Positions 108 through 11,130 of a DNA stretch of 64,000 bases are shown piece by piece. The translations under genes were made by a program, and so were the position numbers. The notes under the pieces were generated by a model. The model did no database searches and was not told the DNA's origin. It saw nothing but the letters and a program-made list of their open reading frames with translations. Numbering within the stretch: position 1 is the stretch's first letter; the number at the start of each line of letters is the position of its first letter. This stretch comes from Gluconacetobacter sacchari (GTDB lineage Bacteria > Pseudomonadota > Alphaproteobacteria > Acetobacterales > Acetobacteraceae). The DNA is taken from NCBI RefSeq assembly GCF_014174255.1, contig NZ_JABEQJ010000001.1, positions 1 through 64,000 on the forward strand, written 5' to 3'.

Positions 108-2525
108 CTAGAACTCGACGCTGACGGTGCCGAAATAGGTACGCGGCGAACCCGCGAGCGCCGACTGATAATCGCCCGAAAGCGGCAGACCATTCTCGCC
201 GATCTGGGAAATATAGGAAATATTGGTCAGGTTGTAGATATTCAGGTCGAATTTCAGATTATGCAGCGGCCCGACCCTGCCGAAACGGTAGCTGGCCCCC
301 AGCGACGTCAACCAGTAGCCGGGCACCGACATATCGTTGATGTAGCTGAAATAGCGCTTCGACATATAGTTGGCATTGGCATAAACGGTCGCTGCGCCAT
401 AAGTATAGGAAATATCGGCTTTGTACATGAATTGCGGAAACGCCACCACCTTCTTGCCCGCCAGCCCGTAGCTCATCCCCTCCGACATGATATTGTCGTC
501 ATATGTCGAGTGATTGTAGCTGATACTGTTGGTAATCGAGAGGTTCCGGATCGGACGCAGCGTCAGGGCCGCATCGACGCCATACATGCCGACTCCGCCG
601 ACATCGATCGGGGTCGATACCGGGTCGGTAATCGGGCCGGATGTCAGGTTCTGGATTCTGTTGGAAAAATCGGCATGATACAGGTTCAGCGACCCGCTGA
701 CGATCCGCGCGTTATAGCGATACCCGACATCATAGACCCAGGCCGTCTCGGGCCGCAGCGTATTTTTCAGGCTGTCGAACGTCGCCTGGTTGGCAAATCC
801 GCCGAAGGTCGAACCCAGTTGATACCCGCCATAGCTATAGGCCCGCATGTTGCGGGCAATATCGAAATAGAGTTCATGGCCGGGCAGAAACCGCCACACG
901 CCGTTGAAATGCGGCAGAAACGCCTTGGCGCTGGTCATGCTGCCGTTCACAAGCTGGTCCTGCCCGGTATAGGCGGCGTCATTGGCCGTGGCGCCGCCCA
1001 CCGTCGTCACCAGCATGGATTTGAACCCGGCCTTCAGCGTCAGGCTGGCCAGCGGCCGATAGGTATCCTCAAGATGGAACTGGAAACTATTGGTATTGAA
1101 ATTCTCGCCCCAGTTGTGCTGGAACGGCGCGCCGAAATTCCCCAGCACCCCGCTGACCGGCGTCCCCTGGCCCAGGAGCGGCTCCTGATACATGTTCTGA
1201 TCGATACCATACCGGTTATTCTCGTACCAGACGCCGGCATCGATCGTATGCCGCGCGACCTCGTATTCCAGCGCGGTCGTAAAGCCGAATTTCCGGTTGC
1301 CTGAGGCATTGACCTGTTCGGACAGCGGCGCGCCGTCGGGCGAGCGAACGTAAGGCGTCGTCCAGGTTCCCCACTGGTTCGCGGCCTGACCATAGGCCAC
1401 GGAATTCCACGCCAGATGCCGGGTCAGGACCAGATGGGCATTGATGCCCCCCAGATAGCCGGAGGAATGCGTCACGCCGTCGAAATAGGAAGCATCGAGC
1501 GCATCGCCGCCCGCCGCGTCATAGGCGGCGAGCGCGCCGCTGAACGTGCCTTCAGCCGCCAGATAGGCGCGGGTATAATCGGGATAATAATAATCGTTGC
1601 GATGGCCCAGATCCCTCAACATGCCGATCGTCTGGTCGGCATAATTGAACTGGGTCGCGTCATTCCAGTTGAAGAATATTTTTACAGTGCTCTCCTGCCC
1701 GATGGGCTGGACGAGCTTGGCATTCACCTGCTGGTCGAACTGCTCGCCGTGCCCTTTCCATTTATCGCCGTCGGACCGGGCATAGGAAACGGTGAATTTG
1801 GTGCCCGAGGCATTCAGCCTGCCGCTGTCGACCCGTCCGAAGGTCCGAAAGGAATTGTAGCTTCCGAACATCTGCGCGATCTTGCCGCCGAAATGGTCGG
1901 CGGGGTCGCGCGAGACGATCTGGATCGAACCGCCGAGATTCGTCGTCGCCGGCAGCGCCACGTCCCCACCGCCGTCCGAGACATCCATCCGCTCGATATT
2001 GTCCGACAGGATCGAGAAATTGATGCTCTGGCCGTTATACGGCAGGTACGTCTGCGCCCCCAGCGGCACGCCATCCAGCGTCACGCCCAACTGGTCCTGC
2101 TGGAAACCGCGCATATACAGGCTGGAGCCCCACGTATCGACACCCAGCGGATCGTTGGCCACGAAATTGATGCCCGGCCTGCGCGCCAGCATCATCATCG
2201 GGCTGCTCCCCTGCACGAACCTGTCCATTTCCACGCGGGTCATGGTTTCCGTCGCGCCATAGCCGCTACGCCGCATCGTGGTCACCGTAAGGTCTTCGCT
2301 CGAAGGCGAACGAACAGCCACACGCTTCCCGGCCGGCCGCCCCGCCGCGACAGCCTTGCCGCCCGGCGCCCCGGACGACACCGCCCGCACCCTCGGTACC
2401 GGGCGATGCTTCGATCCGCCCACCTTGCCGGCGCCAGAAGCCGCGTGCGCGCGAAAAGCGGCCCCTGGCGGCACGGCGATACACGAGGTCAAAAGAAGGA
2501 ACGACAGGATTTTTCTCGCATTCAT
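108..2525 (-). CDS. TonB-dependent outer-membrane receptor, candidate member of the choline regulon
   Basis: Outer-membrane active transporter of about 805 residues. From the chosen start (MNARKILSF...) it has a hydrophobic signal peptide, a low-complexity Ala/Gly/Arg linker, a plug domain with the segment YMRGFQQDQLGVTLDGVP, and a long beta-barrel ending in a terminal Phe (SVEF), as is usual for barrel proteins. The frame stays open to 2597, but that upstream start codon falls inside a BetI-like palindrome (2581-2598), so I take the ATG at 2525, which precedes the signal peptide. It is transcribed away from choVW. The substrate cannot be read from the sequence. Its position beside choline transport, and the operator-like site in front of it, suggest a choline-related compound (inference). 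The receptor fold is certain; the ligand is a guess. Confidence 0.85.
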   Translation of the reverse strand: MNARKILSFLLLTSCIAVPPGAAFRAHAASGAGKVGGSKHRPVPRVRAVSSGAPGGKAVAAGRPAGKRVAVRSPSSEDLTVTTMRRSGYGATETMTRVEMDRFVQGSSPMMMLARRPGINFVANDPLGVDTWGSSLYMRGFQQDQLGVTLDGVPLGAQTYLPYNGQSINFSILSDNIERMDVSDGGGDVALPATTNLGGSIQIVSRDPADHFGGKIAQMFGSYNSFRTFGRVDSGRLNASGTKFTVSYARSDGDKWKGHGEQFDQQVNAKLVQPIGQESTVKIFFNWNDATQFNYADQTIGMLRDLGHRNDYYYPDYTRAYLAAEGTFSGALAAYDAAGGDALDASYFDGVTHSSGYLGGINAHLVLTRHLAWNSVAYGQAANQWGTWTTPYVRSPDGAPLSEQVNASGNRKFGFTTALEYEVARHTIDAGVWYENNRYGIDQNMYQEPLLGQGTPVSGVLGNFGAPFQHNWGENFNTNSFQFHLEDTYRPLASLTLKAGFKSMLVTTVGGATANDAAYTGQDQLVNGSMTSAKAFLPHFNGVWRFLPGHELYFDIARNMRAYSYGGYQLGSTFGGFANQATFDSLKNTLRPETAWVYDVGYRYNARIVSGSLNLYHADFSNRIQNLTSGPITDPVSTPIDVGGVGMYGVDAALTLRPIRNLSITNSISYNHSTYDDNIMSEGMSYGLAGKKVVAFPQFMYKADISYTYGAATVYANANYMSKRYFSYINDMSVPGYWLTSLGASYRFGRVGPLHNLKFDLNIYNLTNISYISQIGENGLPLSGDYQSALAGSPRTYFGTVSVEF

Positions 2526-2580: not shown

Positions 2581-2598
2581 GCTGAATGCTCGTTCAAT
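2581..2598. promoter_or_regulatory. Imperfect BetI-type operator in front of the TonB receptor
   Basis: Read on the minus strand this is ATTGAACG-AG-CATTCAGC. One half-site is identical to the perfect palindrome at 4911-4928 and the other matches at 5 of 8 positions, with the same 2-base spacer. It lies 56 to 73 bases upstream of the preferred receptor start, a normal place for a repressor site. Similarity to the other site is seen directly; binding by the BetI domain is inferred. Confidence 0.5.
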
Positions 2599-2750
2599 TA
2601 TTGCCATTTCGAAATAATGAATCCGCCAGTTTCCGGAAGAAATACGACACCTCCCGCCGGATGGAAAACGGGAGCCAACCGACCTGAACATCTATTCAAT
2701 ATACGATCGAAACCACGCGCGGAGCCGCAGCCGGCCATGCGAACAGGCCG

Positions 2751-3935
2751 CTATTCAGGCCGGAAGCGCGCCTCGCCGCACAGCGCCTGAAGAATATCGG
2801 CATCGTCGCACAGGCCGGCAAGCCGCCCATCGACCTCCACCAGCACCGGCAGGCCGCTGCGCTGGCGCAGGGCGACGATCTCGCCCAGGCTCAACTGGGC
2901 GGGCACGACACACAGCGCCCCCGGCTGCCATTCGCCATGCGGCCGGATCGGCAGCGGCCGGCCGGCCAGTCGCGCGGTCGCACTTTCCGGCGCGACGGCG
3001 ATGCGCCCACCATCCAGCATCCCGTCCGCCAGACGCGGCAGATCCTCGAAACGCCGCATGACGGCGGTGGCCACGATGGTCGGCAGCGGGTTCATGTGCC
3101 GGATGAATTCCGCGACATAGGCATTGACCGGGCGCAGGGCGATATCGTCGGGCGTGCCGGTCTGGACGATCCGCCCCTCGCGCATGATCGTGATGCGACT
3201 GCCGATCTTCAGCGCCTCGTCGATATCGTGGCTGACGAACAGGATCGTCTTCTTCAGCCGCTTCTGAAGATCCATCAGCTCGTCCTGCAATTTCCGGCGG
3301 ATCAGCGGGTCGAGCGCGGAAAACGGTTCGTCCATCAGCAGGATGTCAGCATCGGTCGCGAACGCGCGCGCCAGGCCGACACGCTGCTGCATGCCGCCCG
3401 ACAATTCATGGACATAGGCATCGGCCCAGTTCGACAGGCCGACCAGGTCCAGCTTCTCGGCGACGACATCGCGCCGGATCGCGGGCGCCATGCCGCGCAG
3501 TTCCAGGCCGAACCCCACATTGTCGCGCACGGTCCGCCACGGCAGCAGGCCGAATTGCTGAAAGACCATGGCGATGCGCGTCTTGCGCAGGGTGCGCAGC
3601 GTATCGTCGTCGCAGCGCGCGATATCCAGCCACGCCAGGCCGTTGCCGATCCGCACCTCGCCGCGCACCGGCCGATTCAGCCGGTTGGCCGCCCGCAGCA
3701 GGGTCGATTTGCCCGAGCCGGACAACCCCATCAGCACGCTGATCTCACCCCGCGCCACCGCCAGGTTGGCGCCCGCCACCCCCACCGTCACCTTCAGGGC
3801 ACGGCCGATCTCCTCGCGCGTTTCGCCGGCGTCCAGCCGCGCCAGCGCCGCCTCGATCGCGCCCCGGCGATTGCCGCGGTCGAACAGGATATCGACATCG
3901 CGGAATTCGAGCGCCGCGTTGACCTCCTCACTCAC
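2751..3935 (-). CDS. choV: Choline/glycine betaine ABC transporter, ATP-binding subunit
   Basis: Cytoplasmic ATPase of the ProV/ChoV family, 394 residues. Walker A (GLSGSGKST) is at about residues 70-78, followed by the ABC signature LSGGMQQRVGLARA, Walker B ILLMDEP and the switch His (FVSHDIDEA). A C-terminal extension of roughly 130 residues looks like the CBS region typical of ProV proteins. The start is GTG at 3935, overlapping the choW stop by four bases (GTGA). The reading frame continues upstream through choW, but that stretch is a shadow. No CBS or substrate data can separate choline from betaine specificity; the divergent bet operon favours choline. No periplasmic binding protein gene follows. 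Confidence 0.9.
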   Translation of the reverse strand: MSEEVNAALEFRDVDILFDRGNRRGAIEAALARLDAGETREEIGRALKVTVGVAGANLAVARGEISVLMGLSGSGKSTLLRAANRLNRPVRGEVRIGNGLAWLDIARCDDDTLRTLRKTRIAMVFQQFGLLPWRTVRDNVGFGLELRGMAPAIRRDVVAEKLDLVGLSNWADAYVHELSGGMQQRVGLARAFATDADILLMDEPFSALDPLIRRKLQDELMDLQKRLKKTILFVSHDIDEALKIGSRITIMREGRIVQTGTPDDIALRPVNAYVAEFIRHMNPLPTIVATAVMRRFEDLPRLADGMLDGGRIAVAPESATARLAGRPLPIRPHGEWQPGALCVVPAQLSLGEIVALRQRSGLPVLVEVDGRLAGLCDDADILQALCGEARFRPE

Positions 3936-4780
3936 GATGCCTGGTCCTTCGGGCGACAGACCCGGTCGAGCATGATGGCCATCAGCACGATGACGAACCC
4001 GGACTCGAACCCGACATCGACCTGCACGGTATTGAGCGCCCGCACCACCGGCACCCCCAGCCCGCCGGCTCCGACCAGCGCCGCGATCACGACCATCGAC
4101 AGGCTGAGCATGATGCACTGCGTCAGCCCCGCCTGGATCATCGGCATGGCGGCGGGCAGCTCGATCTTCCACAGGATCTGGCGCTCCGTGGCGCCGAAGG
4201 CCTCGCCGGCCTCGATCAGCGACCGGGGCACCCGGGTAATGCCCATCTGGGTCATGCGGATCGGCGCCGGCACGGCGAAGATGATGGTGGAGATCATGCC
4301 CGGCACGGTCCCCAGGCCGAACAGGATCAGGGTCGGAATCAGATAGACGAATGTCGGCAGGGTCTGCATCAGGTCCAGCAGCGGTTGCAGCACATGCGCC
4401 AGCCGGGGCCGATGGGCACAGGCGATTCCCAAAGGCACGCCGATCACCATGCAGAACAGGGTCGAGAACAGGATGAGCGACAGCGTCGCCATCGTCTCGT
4501 TCCAATAGCCCTGATTGATGATGAACAGCAGCCCCAGCGCAACCATCACCACCAGGCCCGCCGACCGGCGCGCGTACCACGCCCCGGCCATGGCCGCCGC
4601 CACAAGCAGCAGGGGCGGCATGTCCAGCAGCAGCATGGTCAGGCCGTCGGCGCAGAAACCGACGACATCCGTAATGACATCGAACACGCCAAGACCATGT
4701 TTCTTGATGACGTCCACCACGGCCGCCATGGCGGCTCCTACCGGAATCTTATGATTCGCAATCCAATGTTCCGGCGCCAT
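3932..4780 (-). CDS. choW: Choline/glycine betaine ABC transporter, permease subunit
   Basis: Inner-membrane permease of the ProW/ChoW family, 282 residues, usual length. Several hydrophobic helices are visible, and the cytoplasmic EAA-type loop reads [20 protein letters not shown]. It should form the channel of the complex with ChoV. The ATG at 4780 gives an N-terminus ([15 protein letters not shown]) like other ChoW proteins. It is transcribed divergently from the betI-betB gene; the intergenic region of 166 bases holds a perfect palindrome at 4911-4928, so both directions probably respond to choline through BetI (inference). Confidence 0.9.
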
Positions 4781-4910
4781 GATCCGCGCGACCCCCGCCT
4801 GTCGGTGTGCGATATCGCAGAGTCGATACCCCTTCGAACCCGGTACATATAACGATATGAAACCGGAACATGATAGAGATGATTCCGACCTTCATCGGGA
4901 TGAAATCGAC

Positions 4911-4928
4911 ATTGAACGTCCGTTCAAT
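4911..4928. promoter_or_regulatory. Perfect BetI-type operator palindrome
   Basis: ATTGAACG-TC-CGTTCAAT is a perfect 8-2-8 inverted repeat, starting 36 bases and ending 19 bases before the betI-betB start and lying in the shared region between the divergent choW and betI-betB genes. TTGAAC/GTTCAA half-sites are typical of BetI repressor operators as I know them. The regulator encoded next door has a BetI-like TetR domain, so autoregulation and co-control of choWV are the natural reading. Confidence 0.75.
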
Positions 4929-4946
4929 TCATGCCAGATTGCGCGC

Positions 4947-7040
4947 ATGAAACAGCCCATCCCCTCCCTCACGCCGATCGAGCTGAAACGTCGCGGGGAG
5001 CTCGTGGCCGCGACGCGCGACGTTCTGGTCTCCCATGGCTATGCCGGGGCGACGGTGGCCCGCATCGCCCGCCATGCCGGCGTTTCCCCCGCCCTTCTGG
5101 TCCATTATTTCGGCGACAAGGATACGCTGCTGGCGCTGGCCTTCCGGGGCACGGCCGCCGCCCTGTCGGCCGACGTCGCGCGGGCCGTGCGCGCGGCCCG
5201 CGGGCCACGGGCCCGGCTGGAGGCCCTGGTCGGCGCCTGCCTGGGGGGGGACCAGTTCACCACCCGCCAGGTCGCCATCTGGCTGGCCCTGTGGGGCCAG
5301 GCGGTCCATGTCCCGACACTGGGCCGGATCCAGCATGCCTACCAGTCCCGCATGCTGTCGAACCTGCGCTACGATCTCGGGCACCTGCTGCCGCCGCAGC
5401 AGGCCCGTGCCGTCGCCGACACGCTGGCCTCGCTGATCGACGGCACCTGGCTGCGCGCGGCCCTGGCCCCGCCCGCGACGTTCGACAGCCGCCTCCCCCG
5501 CCAGCAGGTCCTCGCCTTCCTCCATGGCCAGATCGGTACCGAAACGGCCTCCTCGCCACCTCCCGCGATCCTGCGCGGCGCGCCGGACGCGCCATGCACA
5601 AGCTGGATCGACGGCCGCCCCGTCACCGGCGGCGGCCCACGGTTCGAAACCCGCAATCCGGCGACGAACGCGGTCCTGGCCGAGGTCGAGGAAGCCGGCG
5701 AGCTCCTGGTCGCCCAGGCCATCGAGGCGGCGGCGCGCGGGCAGGTGGAATGGGCGGCCCGCACCGGCGCCGAGCGGGCGCGCATCCTGCGCCGCGCCGC
5801 CGACCTGCTGCGCCGCGACAATGCGGCCCTCGCCCGGCTCGAAACGCTGGACACCGGCAAGCCGATCGCCGAGACATCGAGCGTGGACGTCGCGTCCGGC
5901 GCCGACGCGCTGGAGTATTTCGCCGCCCTGGCCGCGACGATGACCGGCGATTGCGTCGATCTCGGCCCCACGGCCTTCGGCTACACGCGGCGCGAGCCGC
6001 TGGGGATCGTGGCCGGCATCGGCGCCTGGAACTACCCGATCCAGATCGCATGCTGGAAGGCCGCGCCCGCCCTCGCCTGCGGCAACGCGATGATCTTCAA
6101 GCCCGCCGAGCTGACGCCGCTGACGGCGGCCCGCCTGGCGGCGATCTTTAGCGAGGCCGGCCTGCCCGACGGCGTCTTCAACGTCGTGCAGGGCACGCGC
6201 GAAACCGGGCAGTTGCTCACCCGCGCCCCGCGCATCCGCAAGGTCTCCCTGACCGGCGAGGTCGGAACCGGCCGCCGGGTGATGGCCGACGCGGCGGCGA
6301 CGCTCAAATATGTCACGCTGGAACTGGGCGGCAAATCGCCGCTGATCGTCTTCGACGACGCCGATCTCGACAACGCGGTCTCCGCCGCGCTGCTGGGCAA
6401 TTTCTATTCGGCCGGCGAGGTCTGTTCCAACGCCACCCGCGTCTTCGTGCAGGCCGGCATCCGCGACCGCTTCCTGGCCCGGTTGAAGGCACGCGTCTCG
6501 GCGATGACGGTGGGCGACCCCCTCGACCCGAAGACCGATGTCGGCGCGCTGATCTCCGAGGACCATATGCGCAAGGTCCTGTCCTATATCGCGGCGGGCC
6601 GGAAGGAAGGCGCCACGCTCCTGGCCGGCGGCCGGCGCGTGCAGCGCGGCACCCTGCGCCACGGCGCCTTCGTCGAGCCCACGGTGTTCGCCAACTGCCA
6701 CGACGACATGACGATCGTGCGCGAGGAAATCTTCGGCCCCGTGATGGCGGTGCTCGATTTCACCGACGAGGACGAAGCGGTCGCCCGCGCCAACGCCACC
6801 CCGTTCGGCCTGGCCGCCGGCGTCTTCACCCGCGACCTGGCCCGCGCGCACCGGGTGATCGCGCGGCTGGAGGCCGGCACCTGCTGGATCAACCAGTACA
6901 ACGTCACACCGATCGAACTGCCGTTCGGCGGCTACAAACAGTCCGGCCTGGGCCGCGAGAACAGCCGCGCGGCGCTCGATCACTATACCCAGATCAAGAG
7001 CGTCTACGTGGCGCTGGGCGATATCGAGGCACCCTACTGA
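4947..7040 (+). CDS. betI/betB: Fused BetI transcriptional repressor - betaine-aldehyde dehydrogenase
   Basis: One uninterrupted frame of 697 residues joins two normally separate proteins. Residues 1 to about 200 are a BetI-like TetR regulator, with a helix-turn-helix at about 34-55 ([21 protein letters not shown]). Residues about 217-697 are a complete aldehyde dehydrogenase that oxidises betaine aldehyde to glycine betaine with NAD(P)+: the motif WNYP, the general base Glu459 in LELGGKSP and the nucleophile Cys493 in GEVCSNATR are all present. I see no in-frame ATG, GTG or TTG in the linker (about 5500-5640) that could start a separate betB. The frame is open from 4779, but the ATG at 4947 gives a normal TetR N-terminus and lies downstream of the operator. 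An out-of-frame ATG at 5594 (MHKLD) hints that betB once had its own start. The stop overlaps the betA ATG by one base. Confidence 0.9.
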
Positions 7041-8707
7041 TGCGGGAATTCGACTATATCATCGTCGGCGCCGGCTCGGCCGGCTGCGTGCTGGCCAACC
7101 GCCTGACCGAGGATGGGCGCAGCCGCGTGCTGCTGCTGGAATTCGGCGGCAGCGACCGCTCGGTCATCGTGCAGATGCCCAGCGCCCTGGCCATGCCGAT
7201 GCATTCCAGACGCTTCAACTGGTTCTACGAAAGCGAGCCGGAACCGCACCTGGACGGCCGGCGCATGCACACGCCGCGCGGCAAGGGTCTGGGCGGCTCC
7301 TCCTCGATCAACGGCATGGTCTATGTGCGCGGCCACGCCCTGGATTTCCAGGAATGGGAGGATATGGGCGCGGCCGGCTGGGGCTACCGCCATGTCCTGC
7401 CCTATTTCCGCCGCGCGGAGGATTGCGCCGAGGGCGAGGATTCCTATCGCGGCCGCGGCGGCCCGCTGCACACGCAGTACGGCACGCTGGACAATCCCCT
7501 GCACGAGGCCTGGATGAAGGCGGGCGAGCAGGCCGGCTACGGCCGCACCGGCGATTACAACGGCTTCCGCCAGGAAGGCTTCGACCGGATGAGCATGACG
7601 GTCCATCGCGGACGGCGCTGGAGCACCGCCAACGCCTATCTGCGCCCGGCGCTCGGGCGCGCCAATCTCACGCTCGAAACCCACGCCCGCGCCACGCGCC
7701 TGCTGTTCGAGGGCACCCGCGCCACCGGCCTGGTCTATACGCGCCACGGCACGTCCCACACCGCACGCGCGACGCGCGAAATCATCCTCTGCGGCGGCCC
7801 GATCAATTCGCCGCAGCTCCTGAAACTGTCGGGCATCGGCCCGGCGGCGGAACTGCGCGCCCACGGCATCGCGGTCCTGGCCGACCGGCCGGGCGTGGGC
7901 GAGAACCTCCAGGACCATCTGGAATTCTATTTCCAGGTCGCCTGCCGCCAGCCGGTCACCCTCTATTCGGCCATGTCGCCCTGGGCGAAGGCGCGGATCG
8001 GCCTGCGCTGGCTGCTGTTCAAGGACGGGCTGGGCGCGACCAACCATTTCGAAAGCTGCGGCTTCATCCGCAGCCGCGCCGGCATCCGCTACCCCGACAT
8101 CCAGTTCCATTTCCTGCCGCTGGCCGTCACCTATGACGGCAAGGGCCTGGCCCGGGGCCACGGCTACCAGGCCCATGTCGGGCCGATGCGCTCCAGGAGC
8201 CGGGGCCGGGTGCGCCTGCGCTCGGCCGACCCGGCGGAAAAACCGGTCATCCAGTTCAACTATATGAGCCACCCGGACGACTGGACGGACATGCGCGCCT
8301 GCGTGCGCCTGACGCGCGAGATCTTCGCCCAGCCGGCCTTCGACCCCTACCGGGGCGAGGAACTGCAACCCGGCGCCGCCTGCCAGACCGACGAGCAGAT
8401 CGACGCCTTCATCCGCCGCAAGGTCGAAAGCGCGCTCCACCCCTCCTGCACCTGCAAGATGGGCGCGGAAGACGACCCGATGGCCGTCGTCGATCCCCAG
8501 ACGCGCGTCATCGGGGTGGAGGGGCTGCGGGTGGTCGATTCCTCGATCATGCCGCGCGTCACCAACGGCAACCTCAACGGCCCGACGATCATGATCGCGG
8601 AAAAGGCCGCCGATCACATCAGAGGTCTGCCACCGCTCCCCGCCTCCAACGCCCCGTTCTTCGAAGCCCCTGACTGGCAGACCCGGCAACGTACCGGCGC
8701 CCCCTGA
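7040..8707 (+). CDS. betA: Choline dehydrogenase (GMC flavoprotein)
   Basis: FAD enzyme of the GMC oxidoreductase family, 555 residues, that oxidises choline to betaine aldehyde at the inner membrane. The ADP-binding loop [14 protein letters not shown] is at the N-terminus, the GMC signature region reads [18 protein letters not shown], and the C-terminal catalytic part has HPSCTCKMG and the TNGNLNGPT loop. It is translationally coupled to betI-betB (TGATG overlap), so both steps from choline to betaine are made together. Length and motifs are normal for BetA. Other GMC alcohol dehydrogenases look alike, but the operon makes choline the best substrate. Confidence 0.92.
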
Positions 8708-8792: not shown

Positions 8793-10151
8793 ATGATCAG
8801 TCTCTTCGACCTCTTCAAGATCGGCATCGGCCCGTCCTCGTCCCATACGGTCGGGCCGATGCGGGCCGCCCGGCGTTTCACCGCGACTCTCGATCCCGCG
8901 ATGCCGGTCGCGCGGCTGCGCGTCACGCTCTATGGCTCGCTGGCCTGGACCGCCAGCGGCCACGCCACAGACAAGGCCGTCATCCTCGGCCTGGCCGGCG
9001 AAACGCCGGAGAACGTCGATCCCGATGCCGCCGATGAAATCGTCCGCCGGATCGGTACCGACCGCACGGTACTGCTCCACGGCCGCGCCGTGGCGTTCGA
9101 CCCTGCCCGGGATATCGTGCTTGACCGCGACACGATCCCGCCGGTCCACCCCAACACCTTGCAGTTCGAAGCCCTCTCCGCCGAGGGCGCGGTGCTGGAA
9201 ACCGCGCGCTTCTGCTCGGTCGGCGGCGGCTTCATCGTGTCCGAGGATGCGACGAAACAGGCCGGCTACGCCCAGCCCGACATGAAGCTGGATTTCGCCA
9301 GCGGCATTGAACTGCTGGAACGCACACGCGAAAGCGGCCTGAGCATCGCGGGCGTCGTCCTGGCCAACGAGTCCGCCCTGCGCCCCGATGCCGAGGTCGC
9401 CGCCTATCTGGACCGGATCATCGACACCATGATGGCCTGCGTCGAGCGCGGCCTGGTCCAGCACGGCACGCTGCCCGGCCGGATCAAGGTCCGTCGCCGC
9501 GCGGCGGCGCTCTACGAACGGTTGCAGGACCGCGCGCGCCTCAACCAGCGCCCCCCACATGAGGCGATGGACTGGGTCAGCCTGTTCGCCATCGCGGTGA
9601 ATGAGGAAAACGCCGCCGGCGGCCGCGTCGTCACCGCACCAACCAACGGCGCGGCAGGCGTGATCCCGGCCGTCCTGCGCTATTACCGCGATTTCTGCCC
9701 CGATGCCTCGCGCCAGGGCCTGCATGATTTCCTGCTGACGGCAGCCGCCATCGGCGGATTGTTCAAGCTCAACGCTTCGATCTCGGGCGCCGAAGTCGGC
9801 TGCCAGGGCGAAGTCGGGGTGGCCTCATCGATGGCGGCGGCGGGTCTGGCAGCGGCACTGGGCGCGACCCCACTCCAGATCGAGAACGCCGCCGAGATCG
9901 GTATGGAACATCATCTGGGCATGACGTGCGACCCGGTCGCGGGCCTGGTGCAGATCCCCTGCATCGAACGCAACGCCTTCGGCGCGGTGAAGGCGATCAA
10001 CGCCGCCTCGCTGGCCATGCATGGCGACGGCGCGCATCATGTCTCGCTGGATCAGGTCATCCGCACCATGGCGGAAACCGGGCGGGACATGAACCATCGC
10101 TACAAGGAAACGGCGCTGGGCGGTCTCGCGGTCAATTTCCCCGAATGCTGA
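8793..10151 (+). CDS. sdaA: L-serine ammonia-lyase (iron-sulfur type)
   Basis: Single-chain [4Fe-4S] L-serine dehydratase, 452 residues, converting serine to pyruvate and ammonia. The N-terminus ([20 protein letters not shown]) is diagnostic of the family; cluster cysteines lie in EVGCQGEVG and in [14 protein letters not shown]. It follows betA by 85 bases on the same strand. Glycine from betaine demethylation plus a one-carbon unit gives serine, so this enzyme would carry betaine carbon to pyruvate, as the sda genes beside betaine-degradation genes of Pseudomonas do. Confidence 0.93.
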
Positions 10152-10191: not shown

Positions 10192-11022
10192 TCAACTCCC
10201 GATACGAACCGGCGATACCAGATCGCGCAGGCAGGAAACGATGGAACGCGGCGTCAACTGACCGCTGCGGGGATTCTCCGCATTAGGCACGATTTCGATC
10301 GTCGCGATGAAACGCGCGGAATCGGCGTCGACAGTAATGGTGTGGATATTGCGATCCACCGCCGGGTCGGCAATCACGCAGACGGTCGTGCGCTCCGGCC
10401 CCACCCCGGCCAAGGCCAGGGCAGCCGCCACGTTGGTATTGGCCGGGAACGCGATGGCCGCTTCATCCGCCGTGCCGGAAAAGATCACGGCAGGCGCGGT
10501 CATGGCGTGGAGATCGATCCCATGCGCGACGATATGCGGCGCCCCCGCCAGGCTGTCGGGCGATTTGCGGGTATCGATCCGGATCGAAACGACCTGGCCC
10601 TCACAGACGGCCTTGATCGCATCCAGCCCCGGAATGGCCCCGCTGGGCACCAGAATCCGCCCCCCACTGGCACGGGCCAGATCGATCAACGCCATGTTGG
10701 ACAGAAGCGCCCCCGCCGACGCCACGACCAGCGTCGCTCCCCGCTCCAGGGTCGGCCGCGCGACATCGGCGAGCAGGCGCGACGGCAGCATTTCGACCAC
10801 CACGTCACACGCCGCCAGCGAGGCCAGATCCCCAACGGGCGGCGGATGCACCAGAGCGGCCAGCCGCTCGCGCGCCCGCTCCTGATCGGCAGCCGCAACA
10901 GCCGCAAGCTCAAGCCCCGGAATCCCGGCATCCAGCAGCCTCGCCACCTGAATGCCGATGGAACCAAGGCCGGCCAGCCCGATACGCAGGGAACGGGAAC
11001 CCGGATAAGGGGCAAAGTGCAT
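10192..11022 (-). CDS. nadX: Putative L-aspartate dehydrogenase (NadX-like)
   Basis: NAD(P)-binding protein of 276 residues. A Rossmann glycine motif (GLAGLGSIG) opens the protein, and the C-terminal segment DRNIHTITVDAD fits the catalytic region of aspartate dehydrogenases, with the His of the family. Such enzymes turn aspartate reversibly into iminoaspartate for NAD synthesis or deaminate it. I start at the ATG at 11022 because the extra 25 residues up to 11097 have no family-like character. It is convergent with sdaA, 40 bases away. The role could be catabolic for another amino acid; function is moderately sure. Confidence 0.7.
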   Translation of the reverse strand: MHFAPYPGSRSLRIGLAGLGSIGIQVARLLDAGIPGLELAAVAAADQERARERLAALVHPPPVGDLASLAACDVVVEMLPSRLLADVARPTLERGATLVVASAGALLSNMALIDLARASGGRILVPSGAIPGLDAIKAVCEGQVVSIRIDTRKSPDSLAGAPHIVAHGIDLHAMTAPAVIFSGTADEAAIAFPANTNVAAALALAGVGPERTTVCVIADPAVDRNIHTITVDADSARFIATIEIVPNAENPRSGQLTPRSIVSCLRDLVSPVRIGS

Positions 11023-11061
11023 GGTCGGAATTCCAGACAAGGAAGAGAAACCGAAAGCAGA

Positions 11062-11089
11062 CCCTGCGTGGATCAGATTCCACGCAGGG
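11062..11089 (-). terminator. Hairpin downstream of the second TonB receptor gene
   Basis: CCCTGCGTGG and CCACGCAGGG form a perfect 10-bp stem with an 8-base loop. It starts about 40 bases past the stop of the receptor gene on the minus strand. No clean T-run follows (TCTGCTTTC), so it may be a weak terminator or an mRNA-end stabiliser; it also sits in the leader of the nadX-like gene. Confidence 0.45.
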
Positions 11090-11130
11090 CTCACCACTTC
11101 ATTTCAGACGGCGGAACCAGAGTTCCAGCA

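Follow-up and report, generated by a model that had tools for sequence, protein, structure and literature searches.

Autogenous repressor-enzymes are, to our knowledge, few, and the textbook case among them is PutA, whose P5CDH domain is a member of the aldehyde dehydrogenase (ALDH) superfamily. According to excerpts of two published accounts, PutA combines an N-terminal DNA-binding domain with a catabolic enzyme and acts as the autogenous repressor of its own pathway (PMC5293562), and its regulatory activity is shifted by its substrate and cofactors (PMC9132996). The locus analyzed here, from Gluconacetobacter sacchari, lies in a 64,000-nucleotide stretch of contig NZ_JABEQJ010000001.1 (hereafter, the window) and contains a gene, termed betIB, that encodes a choline repressor (BetI) and a betaine-aldehyde dehydrogenase (BADH, BetB) as one protein. 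Its repressor half resembles BetI of E. coli, Sinorhizobium meliloti, Acinetobacter and Ruegeria in HMM family, operon and operator sequence; in the described cases, as far as the available portions of those descriptions go, BetI of these species is a separate gene, whereas in betIB it is joined covalently to BetB. The enzyme half is about 58-60% identical, in structural match, to BetB of Pseudomonas aeruginosa (2wme) and Agrobacterium (3r31) and keeps the catalytic residues, and it differs from stand-alone BetB in forming the C-terminal part of a longer polypeptide. Judged from its sequence, betIB has the architecture of a trigger enzyme or autogenous repressor-enzyme, that is, a repressor domain and an enzyme encoded in their own operon. 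A naturally occurring BetI-BetB fusion was not described in the literature searched, which did not extend to most subscription journals, so that this is weak evidence of absence, and there is no fusion-specific NCBIfam model among 25 of the 68 families listed for 50 members.

The features of the locus are collected in Table 1. Pfam recognizes TetR_N, TetR_C_6 and Aldedh, and these only, in the betIB product, all of them above their gathering cut-offs, and the protein resolves into a BetI-type TetR repressor at residues 19-195 and a complete BADH at residues 219-697. The original prediction, made from the sequence alone, had been that a single open frame encodes a TetR/BetI domain and a complete BADH with Glu459 and Cys493 in place, and in this the translation and the Pfam and NCBIfam results agree; its further claim that the linker offers no in-frame ATG, GTG or TTG for a separate BetB is confirmed. 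Against the NCBIfam BADH models, the product scores 781 bits with PRK13252 (cut-off 593) and 679 bits with TIGR01804 (cut-off 668.6), and the catalytic Glu459 and Cys493, together with Asn362, are invariant across 50 aligned fused proteins. By the full-length equivalog model and the catalytic Glu/Cys pair, the BetB half classifies as a BADH and is predicted to oxidize betaine aldehyde. The BetI half alone passes the PRK00767 BetI model (162 bits, cut-off 118) and lies below the stricter TIGR03384 BetI equivalog cut-off (175.3 against 201.3 bits), which just one of five other fused BetI halves passes (L124, 208.1), two falling just short (199.6 and 198.5) and two scoring 173-177; by the PF00440, PF13977 and PRK00767 cut-offs, it classifies as a BetI-type repressor. 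The frame can be extended in the 5' direction to ATGs at 4857 and 4779. The ATG at 4947 is the start common to the four nearest congeners, and the operator-like palindrome lies 5' of it.

Table 1. Features of the betIB locus, in positions of the window.
Feature	Position	Strand	Remarks
betIB, BetI repressor/betaine-aldehyde dehydrogenase fusion	4947..7040 (including stop codon)	+	697 aa, no internal stop
TetR_N helix-turn-helix DNA-binding domain, residues 19-63	5001..5135	+	Pfam PF00440, 45.8 bits (cut-off 24)
BetI-type C-terminal domain TetR_C_6, residues 87-195	5205..5531	+	Pfam PF13977, 87 bits (cut-off 27)
Linker, residues 196-219	5532..5603	+	No ATG, GTG or TTG in frame; evolves fast; modelled with low confidence
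Aldedh, betaine-aldehyde dehydrogenase domain, residues 231-686	5637..7004	+	Pfam PF00171, 583.7 bits
Operator-like palindrome ATTGAACGTCCGTTCAAT	4911..4928		18 bases 5' of the betIB start codon
betA, choline dehydrogenase	7040..8707	+	TIGR01810, 831 bits (cut-off 732); ATG overlaps the betIB stop by one base
choW, choline ABC transporter permease (transcribed away from betIB)	3932..4780	-	TIGR03416, 385 bits (cut-off 363)
choV, choline ABC transporter ATPase	2751..3935	-	TIGR03415, 470.7 bits, just below the cut-off of 483.75; start inferred from sequence
Second weak operator-like site before TonB receptor, 11/14	2683..2700		No congener counterpart of at least 10/14 recognized
Weak operator-like site before TonB receptor, 11/14	2581..2598		10-11/14 counterpart in each of four congeners
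TonB-dependent receptor	108..2525	-	Pfam PF00593 and PF07715

The original prediction had proposed a search for the fusion in other species; the search revealed it in congeners and in many alphaproteobacterial genera, and the fusion is not peculiar to this genome but old and widely spread. Of the 13 same-genus genomes, eight share the unbroken frame, with identities of 70-90%; in one more, BetB appears as no more than a fragment at the end of a contig, and the remaining four lack a listed ALDH match above 44% identity. Close relatives with split betI and betB, named beforehand as grounds for abandoning the idea of a fusion, were not found among these 13. A stop-free match that crosses the linker and extends as far as residue 269 or 270 is present in 25 genomes (own included) of a family-wide sample of 397, and a match across the linker in three (own included) of a class-wide sample of 385. 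The phylum sample, of 398 genomes, holds 111 with a strong BetB, at least five of which (own included) are fused, the best 30 loci having been examined. When named genomes were scanned, BetI ran into BetB in one stop-free frame in all of the best 80 of 239 relatives, a result that gives no frequency because the ranking query includes the linker and so favors fusions; many of these 80 named loci are closely related, and counts over them are non-independent. The alignment extends to residue 697 in 72 of them, the other eight being one that reaches 694, three cut by contig ends, two that reach only 570 and 595, one with a very divergent ALDH half (L155) and one with a frame break at ORF residue 414 (L117). 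This last locus comes from a Parvibaculaceae MAG, and an assembly error is the probable reason why its fused frame is interrupted after 414 codons, with the rest of the ALDH lying in a different frame. Among the carriers of the fusion are Gluconacetobacter, Acetobacter, Komagataeibacter, Acidocella, Ancylobacter, Azorhizobium, Aureimonas, Methylobrevis, Kaistia, Faunimonas, Sphingorhabdus and Caulobacterales MAGs, as well as gammaproteobacterial (Steroidobacteraceae) MAGs.

Phylogenetic analysis of BetB points to an old fusion of mostly single origin. In a C20-mixture tree of 39 BetB rows, hand-picked for spread from a larger set of 123 and with a bootstrap that is not fully settled, all 26 fused rows and one BetB-only row fall on one branch (95/98). 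The quick tree of all 123 BetB domains (87 fused), which are what was left of 159 loci with a BetB match once fragments, identical sequences and second copies of named genomes had been set aside, needs three state changes, and in it the sphingomonad fusion L182 falls outside; a separate origin for L182 was rejected, since it appears in the quick tree only and the C20-mixture tree groups L182 with the other fusions. The rule used to call fusions missed L117 and L132, the latter, with a 668-aa frame, being labelled as fused by hand for the quick tree; L136, L139, L155 and L166 had no strong enough BetB match. The BetB-only gene nested among the fusions (L183, genome G1018) has a short N-terminus, and its BetI half was probably lost secondarily. 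In L067, which the quick tree places nearest among the split relatives, betI and betB lie in the same frame and are parted by a TGA, which makes loss of a stop codon the likelier route and suggests that the fusion arose in this manner, the sister position of L067 being taken from the quick tree and not settled by the C20-mixture tree. The route originally proposed, a recent small indel near 5594, is ruled out by the age and spread of the fusion and by the lack of conservation of the out-of-frame ATG invoked in its favor. This ATG does exist at 5594, but it is a GTG in the four nearest congeners and its frame does not encode BetB.

A same-strand betA gene lies downstream of the fusion in 75 of the 80 named fused loci. 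The betIB product is the sole TetR_C_6 (PF13977) protein found in the 4.83-Mb genome, and the remaining ALDHs of the genome are at most 45% identical to its dehydrogenase; hence, no second BetI or BetB of the same type was found. The gene for the choline-binding protein, choX, is located away from choWV (L208, contig C13; TIGR03414, 367 bits, below the cut-off of 379), and its 3.9-kb orphan locus shows no operator-like site of at least 10/14. Following betA on the same strand (8793-10151) there is a gene for a single-chain L-serine dehydratase, encountered also in four of the 80 named fused loci, those of the nearest congeners, and perhaps linking betaine demethylation to serine use. Beyond it, on the opposite strand (10195-11097), lies an aspartate-dehydrogenase-like gene (Asp_DH_C).

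The sequence upstream of betIB, ATTGAACGTCCGTTCAAT, is the sole perfect match in the 4.83-Mb genome to ATTGAACNNNNGTTCAAT (pattern ATTGAAC-N4-GTTCAAT), and sites with up to three mismatches number 62 in the genome, against 13 for a control pattern. With this pattern, derived from the window, we surveyed 78 of the 80 named fused loci, two with short upstream DNA being excluded. At least one site of 11/14 or better is found upstream in 72 of the 78, where dinucleotide shuffles predict 1.1, and two such sites are found in 32, where they predict 0.0. Among 39 split control loci, a set that includes weak TetR homologues, 21 have at least one site and one has two. The palindrome is also similar to the Ruegeria betI box, given as ATTGACG*CGTCAAT in an excerpt of its description (PMC12442346). 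A sigma-70 promoter scan of 4740-4990 returned no match. In fused loci, the presence of two operators is associated with a divergent cho operon (25/49 vs 5/21, p = 0.04, the loci being non-independent), and paired operators can be explained without bridging, because one operator per divergent promoter suffices. The window holds just one strong operator, and DNA looping between two operators is speculation. Four operator matches are seen within the window (0.77 expected), two of them preceding the gene for the TonB receptor and one elsewhere. The two receptor sites are rated weak because of the many comparable sites in the genome; from their position, the receptor is possibly an outer-membrane component of the choline regulon. 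In Komagataeibacter saccharivorans (L209), the fusion and a TonB receptor gene are direct neighbors in divergent orientation.

The best explanation for these observations, and one that we regard as probable on balance, is that a single polypeptide serves both as the choline repressor and as the second enzyme of the pathway, with the BetB half also aiding the repressor in a non-catalytic manner. This reading draws on the fusion and its conservation, its old and mostly single origin, the conserved operator, the selection acting on both halves and the retention of the dehydrogenase half in Kaistia. As the operator suggests, the BetI half would bind the palindrome and repress its own operon, betIB-betA, and it would probably repress the divergent choWV too. 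By analogy with BetI in general, binding of choline would make the BetI half release the operator, and the BetB half would convert betaine aldehyde into glycine betaine. Provided that the single chain accumulates in vivo, each enzyme molecule would also be a repressor molecule, and the induced cell would therefore contain a large pool of repressor, capable of shutting the operon once choline runs out. The dehydrogenase half would aid the repressor without catalysis, most simply through oligomerization, and a tetramer would bear two BetI dimers, enough for two operators.

An alternative view is that the two halves act independently through a flexible linker, so that the gain lies in fixed 1:1 expression and neither DNA binding nor catalysis is affected. 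Between the window and four congeners, and among the latter, dN/dS ranges from 0.06 to 0.32 in BetI, from 0.25 to 0.83 in the linker and from 0.09 to 0.22 in BetB, values indicative of purifying selection on both halves and of a fast-evolving linker. In an AlphaFold monomer model of betIB (50 sequences; mean pLDDT 81, pTM 0.65), linker residues 198-213 have pLDDT below 50 and the linker models as flexible; four stretches of the ALDH half (341-347, 493-496, 645-651 and 654-683) likewise fall below 50. The Foldseek matches listed for the ALDH half are to ALDHs of known structure, with BADHs at the top, and no TetR-ALDH fusion is named among the matches listed (60 of 284; 50 of 1617 in the structure search); this search adds little beyond sequence, because the model is a monomer with low-confidence stretches in its ALDH half. 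The rapid evolution and low model confidence of the linker favor independent halves, and so do its variable length, from 11 to 42 residues across fused genes (in the aligned region), and the normal occurrence of BetI and BetB as separate proteins in relatives; a variable, low-confidence linker argues against a precise interface formed through it. On the other hand, three species of Kaistia keep a catalytically dead ALDH half open, with substitutions milder than those of neutral simulations, whereas a mere tether would allow that half to be lost by a stop codon. We view independent halves as a less likely reading, though one of appreciable weight.

The Kaistia evidence comes from the genus of Kaistia adipata, in which six of 14 genomes have the fusion, three of them in intact form; a seventh, weaker match (L223) was excluded from the comparison. 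The other three are those of K. adipata itself (L217, equivalent to L155) and of two further species (L218 and L219). They retain two operators and a BetI half that shares 82-92% identity with its congeneric counterparts, but their ALDH half shares only 40-66% with the intact ones. Asn362 and Cys493 are lost in all three and Glu459 in two, L218 keeping a Glu at 459. The three retain 79, 102 and 88 of the 154 ALDH columns that are invariant in 50 intact fusions, against all 154 in the three intact Kaistia, and a betA of the 69-70% class is absent from their genomes and found in two of the three intact ones. Relative to an intact copy, 30-46% of the bases in the dead halves differ and there are 28-41 codon gaps, and in none of the three is there a stop or frameshift, gaps being of whole codons only. 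Under random substitution, stop-free runs amounted to 0.4% at 20% divergence, 0/500 at 25% and 0/500 at 30%. The mean BLOSUM62 score of the dead halves is -0.32, 0.0 and 0.03, against neutral simulation means of -0.76, -0.61 and -0.66, and all of the best neutral runs (-0.56, -0.45 and -0.43; 60 stop-free runs each) are harsher; the substitution model is crude, divergence is counted against an intact copy, and the figures overstate the case somewhat, because part of the divergence and of the mild substitutions predates the loss.

These dead domains might alternatively be decaying remnants, or have acquired an unrelated new function, and in either case they would be uninformative on the role of the ALDH half elsewhere. 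Selection on their amino acids is clearly relaxed, to judge from pairwise dN/dS values of 0.26-0.63 against intact congeners; L217 is very divergent, with an end branch of 1.28 changes per site in the ALDH-half tree; and the retention of hydrophobic positions beats all simulations in L217 only, L218 and L219 lying within the simulated range. Against decay stand the stop- and frameshift-free state of the domain in three species at such nucleotide divergence, with whole-codon gaps only, and substitution classes milder than in every neutral run, and we consider this alternative unlikely, though far from negligible. The three loci with dead domains group together in the tree of ALDH halves (100/100) but not in the DNA tree of BetI halves, so that a single loss is not proven. 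The fusions of L217, L218 and L219 are candidate pseudo-enzyme regulators of choline uptake. From a half that is catalytically dead and nonetheless open in three species, we infer that the attached fold is still needed by the repressor, and that the dehydrogenase fold serves the repressor beyond catalysis. On the sensing and coupling roles suggested in the original prediction, in which enzyme state or substrate would alter DNA binding, these domains have only an indirect bearing.

A more elaborate role for the ALDH half would be that of sensor and clamp, in which binding of betaine aldehyde and NAD(P)+ in its active site, or else tetramer formation, would directly alter the grip of the attached BetI dimers on one or two operators, and the Kaistia enzyme would have become a pure pseudo-enzyme regulator of choline uptake. 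We deem this improbable as it stands, albeit worth stating: if true, the pathway would be read at two steps, with choline sensed by the TetR pocket and the toxic intermediate by the enzyme.

It could also be argued that the fusion is mostly a coding arrangement, and that BetB is made alone as well, through internal initiation or proteolysis of the linker. A survey of linker starts in 71 of the 80 named loci plus the window, which excluded truncated, broken, divergent and near-duplicate loci, lends this some plausibility, for 27 of the 72 fused genes have an in-frame linker ATG, in some of them close to the ancestral betB start. The same survey also weighs against it: in 13 of the 72, among them those of the window and of its four nearest congeners, the linker lacks ATG, GTG and TTG altogether, and a linker start with a Shine-Dalgarno match of at least 5 occurs in only two. 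Sphingomonad linkers, moreover, span 11 residues of the aligned region, and the ancestral BetB N-terminus is missing from them. A second product from the same frame appears very unlikely, although proteolysis may still occur. That a sequencing or assembly artefact joined two genes can be dismissed, because eight of the 13 congeners and dozens of further assemblies show the same unbroken frame.

Taken as a group, these genes comprise a widespread TetR-type repressor-enzyme of mostly one origin, alongside split homologues and what seem to be natural pseudo-enzyme descendants. Such a set would make it possible to test directly why repressor and enzyme merge, and whether an enzyme can turn into a regulatory domain. 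It illustrates as well how automatic annotation can hide proteins of this kind. In Komagataeibacter saccharivorans, the fusion is borne by a plasmid (NZ_CP023037.1, L209) and is annotated only as betB, betaine-aldehyde dehydrogenase (WP_254058047.1), its repressor half being left unnamed.

Among known systems, PutA is the closest in working, though it belongs to another family. Both proteins fuse a DNA-binding domain to a catabolic enzyme and act on their own pathway, which in the case of betIB would occur through the repression proposed above. PutA, in its trifunctional form, unites a ribbon-helix-helix domain, the PRODH flavoenzyme and P5CDH, and switches between DNA and membrane, whereas betIB has a TetR/BetI domain, a single enzyme domain and no indicated membrane role. 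Since Pfam finds neither a ribbon-helix-helix nor a PRODH domain in it, betIB is not itself a PutA; by analogy, it may work like one, as the TetR counterpart of PutA in the choline pathway.
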